Below, in pieces: positions 51,498 to 54,524 of a DNA stretch of 64,000 nt. The position numbers and the translations under genes were made by a program. The notes under the pieces were generated by a model. That model did not search any database. It was given only the letters and a program-made list of their open reading frames with translations, and was not told where the DNA came from. The DNA lies in contig NZ_LAZS01000006.1 in NCBI RefSeq assembly GCF_002007205.1, positions 868,001-932,000 of the forward strand, given 5' to 3'. This stretch comes from Ensifer adhaerens. Lineage in GTDB: Bacteria; Pseudomonadota; Alphaproteobacteria; Rhizobiales; Rhizobiaceae. Position 1 is the stretch's first letter. Each line of letters begins with the position of its first letter.

Positions 51498-53333
51498 ATG
51501 CGGCCCATGAGCACAACATCTTCGAAGACGCCCCTTTCGCATATCCGCAACTTCTCGATCGTGGCCCACATCGACCACGGCAAGTCGACGCTTGCCGACC
51601 GGCTGATTCAGTCCACCGGCGGCCTCGCCGAACGCGAGATGTCCGAGCAGGTGCTCGACAGCATGGATATCGAGCGCGAGCGCGGCATCACCATCAAGGC
51701 CCAGACGGTGCGCCTGCACTACAAGGCCAATGATGGCGAGACCTATGTGCTGAACCTGATCGACACCCCCGGCCACGTCGACTTCGCCTACGAAGTCTCG
51801 CGCTCGCTGTCGGCCTGCGAAGGCTCGCTGCTCGTCGTCGACGCGTCGCAGGGCGTGGAAGCCCAGACGCTCGCCAACGTCTACCAGGCGATCGACAACA
51901 ACCACGAACTCGTCACCGTGCTCAACAAGATCGACCTGCCGGCGGCAGAACCCGACCGCATCAAGGAGCAGATCGAGGAAGTGATCGGCATCGACGCCTC
52001 GGACGCGGTGCTGATTTCGGCCAAGACCGGCCTCGGTATTCCCGACGTGCTCGAAGCCATCGTCACCAAGCTGCCGGCGCCGAAGAGCGACGGCGGCGAT
52101 GCGGCGCCCTTGAAGGCGCTGCTCGTCGACAGCTGGTACGACACCTATCTCGGCGTCATGGTTCTCGTGCGCATCATCGACGGCACGCTCAAGAAGGGCA
52201 TGACCATCCGCATGATGGGCACCGACGCCAAGTACACGATCGAACGCGTCGGCGTGCTGACCCCGAAGATGGTTGCGATGGATGCGCTCGGCCCCGGCGA
52301 GATCGGCTTCATCACCGCCTCGATCAAGGAAGTGGCCGACACCCGCGTCGGCGATACCATCACCGAGGACAAGCGCCCGACCGCAACCGCGCTGCCGGGC
52401 TTCAAGCCGGCACAGCCGGTGGTCTTCTGCGGCCTCTTCCCAGTCGACGCTGCCGACTTCGAGGACCTGCGCTCGGCGATGGGCAAGCTGCGCCTCAACG
52501 ATGCGTCGTTCTCGTTCGAAATGGAATCGTCCGCTGCGCTCGGCTTCGGCTTCCGCTGCGGCTTCCTCGGCCTCCTGCACCTCGAAATCATCCAGGAGCG
52601 CCTGGAGCGTGAGTTCGACCTCGATCTGATCGCGACCGCCCCTTCGGTCGTCTACAAGCTGTTCATGACCGATGGCTCGGAGCGCGAGCTGCACAACCCG
52701 GCCGACATGCCCGACGTCGTCAAGATCGCCGAAATCCACGAGCCGTGGATCCGCGCGACGATCCTTACGCCCGACGACTATCTCGGCGGCATCCTCAAGC
52801 TCTGCCAGGACCGCCGCGGCATCCAGATCGAGCTGACCTATGTCGGCACCCGCGCGATGCTGACCTACGACCTGCCGCTCAACGAAGTCGTCTTCGACTT
52901 CTATGACCGGCTGAAGTCGATCTCCAAGGGCTATGCCTCGTTCGACTACCAGATCACCGAGCACAAGGAAGGCAACCTTGTGAAGATGTCGATCCTCGTC
53001 AACGGCGAGCCGGTCGACGCGCTGTCGATGATGGTGCACCGCATGGCGGCTGAAAAGCGCGGCCGCGAAATGTGCGAGAAGCTCAAGGAGCTGATCCCGA
53101 AGCACATGTTCAAGATCCCGATCCAGGCGGCGATCGGCGGCAACGTCATTGCCCGCGAAACCATCTCGGCACTGCGCAAGGACGTGACCGCCAAGTGCTA
53201 CGGCGGCGACGCCACCCGCAAGCGCAAGCTGCTCGAAAAGCAGAAGGCCGGCAAGAAGCGCATGCGCCAGTTCGGCAAGGTGGAAATCCCGCAGGAAGCC
53301 TTCATCGCCGCGCTCAAGATGGGCGACGAGTAA
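51498..53333 (+). CDS. lepA: Elongation factor 4 (LepA)
   Basis: A 611-residue GTPase. G1 is HIDHGKST, G2 region [16 protein letters not shown]3 DTPGHVDF, G4 NKID; the C-terminal LepA-specific domain ends with [20 protein letters not shown]. It promotes back-translocation or late elongation recovery and ribosome biogenesis, on the ribosome. GAAGG 10 bases upstream supports ATG 51498; ATG 51507 is an alternative. Long reverse frames opposite this gene are shadows. Confidence 0.97.
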
Positions 53334-53388: not shown

Positions 53389-53468
53389 TGTTTGGGCTCG
53401 AGGCCGAGTTGCGAGTGGCATTCAAGAGCGCCGTGCCGGGACCGGGGGTGTTGTTGACCGGTCCGCGA

Positions 53469-53498
53469 TTGGATCCTCGGGTCAAGCCCGAGGATGAC
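53469..53498 (+). repeat. Palindromic repeat R1
   Basis: GGATCCTCGGGTCAAGCCCGAGGATGAC: ATCCTCGGG and CCCGAGGAT make a perfect 9-bp stem with loop TCAAG. Identical to R2 at 53941-53968 over 28 bases (TT before it here, AT there). Confidence 0.88.
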
Positions 53499-53607
53499 GG
53501 AGGAGGACGTGTGGCGCGTGAAGAAGATTGCCATTCTTCAAGCCATTACAGCTATGTCTGTCGCAGCGCCCACGTCGAAACGCCCCCAGGGTAACATCCC
53601 TATGGTC

Positions 53608-53626
53608 GTCATCCCGAGGATCCAAG
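53608..53626 (-). repeat. Palindromic repeat R3, inverted, internal 12-base deletion
   Basis: On the minus strand TTGGATCCTCGGGATGAC: exactly repeat R1 with the 12 bases TCAAGCCCGAGG removed, so the stem is lost but both flanks survive. It lies 20 bases upstream of the GIY-YIG start codon. Confidence 0.75.
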
Positions 53627-53645
53627 AACGAGCAACCTCCCCGTA

Positions 53646-53930
53646 ATGGCCGGATTCGTTTACATCGTCACGAACCACAAGCAAGGAACACTGTACATTG
53701 GTGTCACCTCCGATCTCGAACGCCGCATCTTCGAACATCGAGGGGGGCTGACGCCGGGGTTTGCATCGAAATACGGTTGCTCACGGCTGGTTTGGTACAA
53801 AGAGCATCTGCAAATCGGCACCGCCATCCAGAGGGAAAAATCTCTCAAACGTTGGTACCGACAATGGAAGGTCGAATTGATCGAGAAGATGAATCCGGAG
53901 TGGCGCGACCTCTACTTCGAGCTTTGGTGA
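53646..53930 (+). CDS. Solitary GIY-YIG endonuclease
   Basis: A 94-residue GIY-YIG nuclease domain and nothing else. GFVYIVTNHKQGTLYIGVTS has the GIY and YIG strands, DLERRIFEHRG the conserved arginine, QREKSLKRWYRQWKVELIEK the catalytic-type glutamate, and NPEWRDLYFELW a C-terminal motif common in the small UvrC-like family. The gene is visibly richer in A/T (AAA, CAA, TTT codons) than neighbours, which suggests transfer. It is boxed in by palindromic repeats, R3 20 bases before and R2 10 bases after. Confidence 0.92.
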   Translation: MAGFVYIVTNHKQGTLYIGVTSDLERRIFEHRGGLTPGFASKYGCSRLVWYKEHLQIGTAIQREKSLKRWYRQWKVELIEKMNPEWRDLYFELW

Positions 53931-53938
53931 GCTTGTTA

Positions 53939-53968
53939 ATGGATCCTCGGGTCAAGCCCGAGGATGAC
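53939..53968 (+). repeat. Palindromic repeat R2
   Basis: Second full copy of the 28-base palindrome, beginning 10 bases after the GIY-YIG stop. Orientation is the same as R1. It may also act as the terminator hairpin of the nuclease gene, although there is no T-tract. Confidence 0.88.
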
Positions 53969-54020
53969 GCTGAGAGAGCGAGGCGATGCTAGAGCCGCGG
54001 AACTGGCCTCGCGCTTCCCC

Positions 54021-54524
54021 TCAAAGCAAATACCGCTTCCAGACCCGATCGACCGGCTGGCCGTCGGCCAGCGGCACCGCCTTGTCGACCCTGTAGTCGA
54101 CGAAGCCCATCTTGCCGTAATAGGTGAGACCGCCGGTGTTGTCGGCGCGGATGGTGGCGTTGAGGGCCGTAAGGCCGATCGAGCGGGCATGGTCGCACGT
54201 GGCCTTGAAAAGAGCCGTGCCGGCGCCGGGGACCTTGTTGCCCGGGCGCGAGAAGGTGCCGATATCGGCCCAATCCTCCGGTATGCCGTCCCAGCGATCC
54301 AGAGCCTGGAAGGCGCAGGGCGCGCCGTTTTCGTCCTCGGCCACGAAGCAGCTGACGAAGCCGGGCCCCGAGAGATAGTGCTCCACGAAGCGCTCCGGCG
54401 TGAATGGCGTCTGGTGGGCCGTGGTGCCGCCGATCGCGATGATCTCGTTCAGGAAGGCGCTGAGTGCTGGCCCATCGTCGGGCCGCGCCGGGCGCACATG
54501 GATCGTCCTCGTTTCGTTCGTCAT
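54021..54524 (-). CDS. GNAT-family N-acetyltransferase
   Basis: A 167-residue GNAT. IHVRPARPDDGPALSAFLNE opens the fold, SRPGNKVPGAGTALFKATCD has the acetyl-CoA loop (K-V-P-G-A-G-T), and ALNATIRADNTGGLTYYGKM is the strand-helix that follows. Substrate unknown. The gene lies 25 bases downstream of the sugar O-acetyltransferase on the same strand, and may be the last gene of a four-gene transcript. Confidence 0.9.
   Translation of the reverse strand: MTNETRTIHVRPARPDDGPALSAFLNEIIAIGGTTAHQTPFTPERFVEHYLSGPGFVSCFVAEDENGAPCAFQALDRWDGIPEDWADIGTFSRPGNKVPGAGTALFKATCDHARSIGLTALNATIRADNTGGLTYYGKMGFVDYRVDKAVPLADGQPVDRVWKRYLL

Follow-up and report, generated by a model that had tools for sequence, protein, structure and literature searches.

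A small GIY-YIG nuclease gene of Ensifer adhaerens and the palindromes beside it form a unit that recurs in many genomes: its architecture is shared, its repeats are matched and co-vary with the protein, gene presence correlates with repeat copy number, one unit has been duplicated exactly, and others have decayed. The window, i.e., the whole stretch of DNA analyzed here, is 64,000 nucleotides long. We put at about two in three the probability that the gene encodes an Ssn-type nuclease that recognizes the flanking CGTC-REPs, and that the gene and its two REPs make up a unit of about 375 bp that is copied and subsequently decays. Recognition of the repeat is well supported by the matching of gene and repeat sequences; judged from sequence, the enzyme probably recognizes its own matched repeat and may spread the CGTC-REP family. 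Cutting of the hairpin and mobilization of REPs by the enzyme are steps that we infer.

Ssn, reportedly described in Nat Commun in 2025, is said to be a family of site-specific single-strand GIY-YIG nucleases of Neisseria meningitidis that bind and cut single-stranded DNA (ssDNA) at a genomic repeat, with thousands of homologues that have their own sites; in Neisseria, it reportedly limits or shapes ssDNA uptake and recombination. CGTC-REPs are a superfamily defined by a CGTC or TGTC tag, an 8- to 9-bp stem mostly starting with AT, a 4- to 5-nt loop, and a CCA tail; they occur mainly in Alphaproteobacteria and include the Neisseria dRS3 repeat (Di Nocera et al. 2013, PMC3733652). In that survey, CGTC-REPs are reported without a dedicated enzyme or transposase; no tyrosine transposase gene is described as flanked by them, and ties to other transposases are few and fortuitous (PMC3733652). 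The window repeat fits this superfamily in tag, stem, loop, CCA tail, and genomic repetition. Whereas no enzyme is reported there for the superfamily, the repeat here frequently has a GIY-YIG gene as its sequence-matched partner.

Organization of the unit in the window

The unit occupies positions 53607 to 53969 (plus strand). It is preceded by an open reading frame that we take to be lepA (elongation factor 4; 51498 to 53333, plus strand), on the 3' side of which is a polymorphic site for the unit, and followed by one that we likewise take to be a GNAT-like acetyltransferase gene (54021 to 54524, minus strand). The unit consists of a left-end CGTC-REP without its 12 inner bases (CGTCATCCCGAGGATCCA; 53607 to 53624, plus strand), the GIY-YIG gene (53646 to 53930, plus strand), and an intact, hairpin-forming right-end CGTC-REP (53940 to 53969, minus strand). 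An additional intact CGTC-REP, identified by repeat match and folding, lies upstream (53470 to 53499, minus strand).

The first-pass annotation, made from the window alone, had described two identical 28-base palindromes in the same orientation, the second lying 10 bases after the stop codon. The repeat is indeed exact and direct, and the second copy is adjacent to the gene; the repeat, TGGATCCTCGGGTCAAGCCCGAGGATGACG, is 30 bp long, and 9 bases separate the full 30-mer from the stop codon. It has two matches at up to three mismatches in the 64-kb window, compared with none in 100 shuffles. Read on the minus strand, it comprises CGTC, a 9-bp stem (ATCCTCGGG), the loop CTTGA, the complementary arm, and CCA, and both intact copies fold into a 9-bp stem with a 5-nt loop (−10.2 kcal/mol; z of −4.0 in DNA folding against shuffles). 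The third copy is inverted and lacks 12 inner bases, as described before, and lies 21 rather than 20 bases ahead of the ATG; in DNA folding it performed no better than shuffles. Two CC dinucleotides border the deletion, and the truncated copy may be a repair scar, as first proposed, or the product of ordinary slippage between these dinucleotides, with which it is equally compatible.

An intact 30-bp REP is found about 21 bp ahead of the ATG in loci L014, L015, L018, L317, and L359. Of the genus's five other close homologues, three (L014, L015, and L018) have it in the place of the truncated copy, which we therefore regard as the left end of the unit. The tight layout, with a REP 21 bp before the start codon and another right after the stop codon, is shared by the window (L013, with the left REP truncated), by these three genus loci, and by L359, L361, and L363 on named plasmids. 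With its left REP truncated, the window unit may have lost the ability to move. The gene was correctly described as richer in A/T than its neighbors: its GC content is 0.526, compared with 0.633 for lepA and 0.643 for the window.

The upstream REP at 53470 may be the leftover of a neighboring unit, as in another genome of the genus (G002), where the corresponding REP closes the first of two units in tandem on its right side; the sequence likeness is weak. Alignment of the window's upstream spacer with the G002 interunit spacer scored 19.5 (shuffled mean, 9.5), within the best of 500 shuffles (22.5), and an impression of homology between the two spacers, gained by eye, was therefore set aside.

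Between lepA and the first REP lies a stretch of 54 bp (53408 to 53461) that is 76% identical to positions 54192 to 54245 inside the GNAT gene, and by eye a similar GNAT-like stretch lies next to a decayed REP in G014. The sequence likeness suggests that 53408 to 53461 is a piece of a second GNAT copy at this site.

The GIY-YIG protein

The window protein has 94 residues and, as annotated at first, a single GIY-YIG domain (PF01541, E of 3.5e-15); at E 0.001, only PF01541 and T5orf172 matched in Pfam. Residues Y6, Y17, G19, R27, H31, E64, and N83, which we take to be the catalytic residues of the GIY-YIG superfamily, are invariant or conserved in an alignment of 37 sequences. The structure predicted by AF2 has a mean pLDDT of 91.8. 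Its top Foldseek matches were UPF0213 (E of 8.6e-5, the sole match below 0.001) and Slx1, and the closest solved folds are the solitary UPF0213 GIY-YIG proteins PDB 1zg2 and 1ywl (29% and 19% identity, respectively). An HUH tyrosine transposase domain is absent by Pfam at E 0.001, the fold being that of GIY-YIG.

It is extremely improbable that the protein is a phage- or intron-type GIY-YIG homing endonuclease that happens to use the palindrome. Weak similarity to the intron endonuclease model TIGR01453 (25 bits) and to a PADLOC homing-endonuclease model (E of 0.0028) points that way, but the TIGR01453 score is below the cutoff of 56.05 and the window protein has no match among phage records at E 1e-5.

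REPs beside GIY-YIG genes in Alphaproteobacteria

A profile search at E 1e-10, which scored up to 13 candidates in each genome, found the family in at least 126 of 385 genomes of the class. The sample taken from these, skewed toward matches near the query, comprised 120 regions with 121 genes in total; all 119 regions placed on a listed match held a gene, and one region off any listed match (L197) lacked it. The center of a strict CGTC-REP lay within 100 bp of 76 of the 121 GIY-YIG genes, compared with 16 of 762 control open reading frames (ORFs) of the same loci, and strict REPs were present on both sides of 44 and 1 of them, respectively. Thus, GIY-YIG genes are flanked by the repeat above chance, a comparison that the first-pass annotation had suggested. 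Strict REPs were found upstream of 57 and downstream of 63 of the 121 genes and, with only the first locus per genome counted, within 100 bp in 59 of 91 cases. Where present, they lay at a median of 23 bp from the start codon and 14 bp from the stop codon. Hairpins of any sequence with stems of at least 9 bp numbered 2.9 per kb upstream and 5.0 per kb downstream within 50 bp of 119 genes; with a background of 0.13 to 0.18 per kb beyond 500 bp, the enrichment is about 19-fold and 34-fold, respectively.

These counts bear on the proposal that the REPs act as ordinary terminator or mRNA-stability hairpins, or that a common repeat came to lie beside the gene by chance, which we regard as very improbable. 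One window copy does follow the stop codon closely, and the 2013 survey places REPs mostly downstream of coding regions (PMC3733652). Yet the enrichment is similar upstream and downstream of the genes, the stems are matched on the two sides of a locus, and no T-run follows the window hairpin. As a general explanation, chance or termination is refuted by the comparison with control ORFs, and the window shuffles and hairpin density agree with this.

Among 200 REPs near the genes, the tag was CGTC in 121, TGTC in 68, AGTC in 6, CCTC in 4, and GGTC in 1; the tail was CCA in 193, with the finder itself demanding CC. Tags pointed outward in 35 of the 54 two-sided loci, the commonest arrangement. Counting against a mobile unit, 41 of the 121 genes lacked a strict REP within 300 bp; inspection by eye shows hairpins with a variant tail or stem at many of these and none at others.

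Beside the genes in L127, L136, L170, and L178, a recurring REP variant has the tail CTC in place of CCA (GTCAT...ATCTC). In L138, L177, and L196, longer, untagged hairpins (e.g., GCGGCGCACCAC/GTGCTGCGCCGC) lie beside solitary GIY-YIG genes instead of CGTC-REPs and are possibly another repeat class for the same enzyme family. One alphaproteobacterial genome (G138) has at least 11 GIY-YIG matches (among them L082, L097, L098, L116, L151, L195, and L196).

Gene presence also tracks REP number, as had been anticipated: among the matches listed and with kinship ignored, at least two matches to a generic 9+5 REP pattern were found in 62 of 126 gene-positive genomes and in 22 of 259 gene-negative ones. 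The pattern misses 8+4 REPs and accepts unpaired stems, so that single matches, present in 53 of the 259 gene-negative genomes (at least one each), are often due to chance. The first-pass annotation had held that a repeat equally common near unrelated genes in genomes without the nuclease would speak against its hypothesis. This is in part what is seen: of the 22 gene-negative genomes with at least two matches, 10 have at least 10. Either REPs persist without the enzyme, for which a gene-negative genome of the same genus with 28 REPs (G012) also argues, or the search missed the gene in REP-rich genomes. A rule that REPs exist only where the gene is present is ruled out by these genomes.

Matching of repeat and enzyme

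The REP sequence differs between lineages and in each is matched to the enzyme of that lineage. Stem sequences vary from locus to locus, while the nearest REPs of one locus share their architecture in 49 of 54 cases and have identical stems on the two sides in 29 of 54 (shuffled mean, 1.1; maximum of 2,000 shuffles, 7). Among the matches listed, five of eight scorable genomes contain an exact further copy of the flank stem at another place, compared with 1.74 in shuffles (15/5,000); 13 genomes had been typed by hand for this purpose, 12 of them with a fetched locus. Protein identity correlates with stem identity in two Mantel tests (r of 0.389, n = 86, 0/1,000; r of 0.214, n = 46, 3/1,000). 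On a protein tree built from few columns and with many unresolved forks, the hairpin type (8+4 versus 9+5) changes 15 times, compared with 38.4 times when shuffled; within the class, it changes 14 times, compared with a shuffled mean of 21.0 and a minimum of 15 in 300 shuffles. All of these tests include contributions of phylogeny and recent copying.

Distribution in the genus, movement, and decay

Among 16 genomes of the genus, 5 have a GIY-YIG homologue, whereas the window-type REP is present in all 16 (1 to 47 copies at up to three mismatches); the Ensifer genome of the window has eight exact REP cores and six with one mismatch. REPs are more numerous in the four genomes with the window's gene lineage than in the other 12 (permutation P of 0.0099), and a window-type REP lies within about 230 bp of all six genes of this lineage. 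Two of these six close homologues (L016 and L021) fit a mobile unit poorly, their upstream REPs being 143 to 175 bp or more away and a downstream REP being absent. A second gene lineage, about 52 to 55% identical over the matched part, is found at another site in the genus; its flanks carry another palindrome, which by eye has a like design (CCTC tag, ATTCCTGTG stem, CTTGT loop, and CCA).

The site downstream of lepA holds the gene in 3 of the 16 genomes and REPs without the gene in 3 others (three in G006, one in G008, and a decayed one in G014), while 10 have no REP-like site. At a second site, next to fadB, G006 and G002 have the gene; G007 and G012 each have one degraded REP found by script and a second, interrupted partner seen by eye; and the other 12 have no REP, with the scan of G011 covering just 164 bp. 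Neither site offered a clean single-insertion empty site from which a target duplication could be read. This presence and absence of gene and REPs at the two sites favors a mobile unit, as does a degraded second unit in the same genome as the window. The latter is a REP-bounded remnant (C18, about 304879 to 305097; L003, 1500 to 1732) that keeps the 5' end of the gene and a C-terminal piece, with colinear DNA matches and 14 of 20 residues identical (E of 3e-6 in a single comparison). An additional partial REP stands in tandem at one end of the remnant.

One trace of copying is a pair of units in G002, of 375 and 374 bp, which start 485 bp apart and are 96.5% identical. Their alignment stops at the outer edges of the REPs, the inverted REP ends are exact, and homology does not run outward on the same side. 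This is the only exact-unit duplication seen: a screen of the 121 class units for duplicates within a genome found a single pair, at 75% identity. In addition, the 159-bp segment that follows one G002 unit resembles, at 75%, the segment that precedes the other, which weakens the case for mobility; the array thus has a duplication history of its own, in which recombination or gene conversion may have taken part.

The repeated surroundings in G002 would also suit a unit that is a passenger, moved in trans by a RAYT or insertion sequence (IS) transposase or by REP-REP recombination, with the nuclease as cargo. REP-REP recombination can yield tandem units, and a nuclease of 94 aa is not known as a transposase. 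Against such a passenger, REP stem and GIY-YIG protein vary together, and the 2013 survey has no tyrosine transposase gene flanked by CGTC-REPs (PMC3733652); we consider it distinctly improbable.

Most REP dimers lack a conserved interior: the 17 dimers examined in the genus have interiors of 0 to 149 bp that by eye are mostly unrelated, with L002 and L041 as the one pair with like interiors. This argues against dispersal as conserved dimers and, together with the REPs common in some gene-negative genomes, tells against a mobile unit.

The unlike dimer interiors also suit a different explanation, in which the enzyme is a resident nuclease that serves the host, for instance by limiting or shaping ssDNA uptake and recombination as reported for Neisseria Ssn, the REPs are its addresses, clustered at the gene for autoregulation, and nothing is mobilized. 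We think this rather unlikely. The closeness of REPs to start and stop codons is a plausible position for control, and REPs persist without the gene. On the other hand, the gene is patchily present (5 of 16 genus genomes), and paralogues in G138 have different REPs within one genome (of eight genes examined, six have strict REPs of differing sequence and two have none). An exact unit was duplicated in G002, a degraded copy exists in the Ensifer genome, and in Azospirillum lipoferum the gene and its REPs sit between sufB and sufC, all of which speaks against this explanation.

Proposed mechanism and relation to REP systems

In the copied-unit reading, the protein, a small and site-specific Ssn-type GIY-YIG nuclease, would bind its flanking CGTC-REP, probably as ssDNA in the hairpin state, on the lagging strand or in incoming DNA. 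Cuts at the ends would allow the REP-bounded unit, with its tags outward, to be copied to new places, where it would then decay to REPs or to nothing.

The first-pass annotation had likened the arrangement to REP palindromes with RAYT transposases and had proposed that gene and repeat form a unit. The likeness is apt in that gene and palindrome recur as a matched unit, and enrichment, co-variation, and the one exact REP-to-REP duplication bear out the proposal. As in REPtrons (REP plus RAYT), a nuclease gene is flanked by a matched REP, and scattered REP pairs occur elsewhere in the genome. However, RAYTs are HUH tyrosine transposases with GTAG-REPs, whereas here a GIY-YIG protein is combined with CGTC-tagged REPs; unlike in REPINs, the interiors of the dimers are mostly not conserved. 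Among the matches listed, in a search that covers subscription and NC-licensed literature thinly, no title or abstract opening linked GIY-YIG proteins with REPs.

A bolder proposal, which we offer tentatively and consider somewhat doubtful, is that the GIY-YIG enzyme is the missing mobilizer of the whole CGTC-REP superfamily. This would be a second case, unrelated to RAYT/HUH, of a nuclease partnered with REPs: an ssDNA nuclease of 94 aa would cut the hairpin and copy the unit of about 375 bp. If so, the unit would be among the smallest protein-coding mobile elements, and the scattered REP pairs would derive from it by deletion. CGTC-REPs are widespread, including Neisseria dRS3, rickettsial RPE, and rhizobial and sphingomonad repeats, and with a sequence-matched nuclease as frequent partner, their origin and spread become directly testable. 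As such enzymes are often found next to the site that they recognize, the recognition sequences of many homologues may be read from the genome.

Homologues outside Alphaproteobacteria, on plasmids, and in phages

A phylum-wide search, with Alphaproteobacteria counted in, found the family in 117 of 398 genomes. In other classes, tagged hairpins were present within 200 bp in 12 of the 14 returned loci, as counted from those listed. In named genomes, a REP lay within 100 bp of the gene in 69 of the best 80 of at least 580 relatives, on both sides in 39; these relatives include Pseudomonas, Lysobacter, Nitrospira, Anaerolineae, and Neisseria gonorrhoeae.

The gonococcal homologue is 53% identical to the window protein over 89 aa, and its gene is flanked by dRS3-like repeats, CGTCATTCCC[GA]C....G[CT]GGGAATCC (ATTCCC[GA]C hairpins); this homology is in favor of a mobile unit. 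We take the gonococcal homologue to be the published Ssn. The window system resembles Ssn in its single-domain GIY-YIG protein of about 94 aa, in the homologous Neisseria protein, and in a cognate genomic repeat near the gene. It differs in the repeat, which is a 9+5 hairpin with the ATCCTCGGG stem in the window and an 8+4 hairpin (ATTCCCGC) in Neisseria.

Of 45 plasmid records found, 8 regions were examined. The Sinorhizobium, two Shinella, and Neorhizobium homologues on plasmids (79 to 88% identical) have the same stem as the window, and that of Rhizobium sp. CIAT894 (80%) has ATCCCAGGG on both flanks. The homologues of Planktothrix and Spirosoma have no such hairpins within 400 bp. On Planktothrix plasmid p1 (L365), the REP-less homologue has MmeI, a type IIL restriction enzyme, on one side and the DISARM gene drmA on the other.

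With the gonococcal homologue as the query, phage records gave 11 matches below 60% identity, 10 of them named Rhizobium and 1 uncultured. Large Rhizobium phages (H31 to H35) encode a distant GIY-YIG protein, which in its matching part shares 37.7% identity with the gonococcal homologue.
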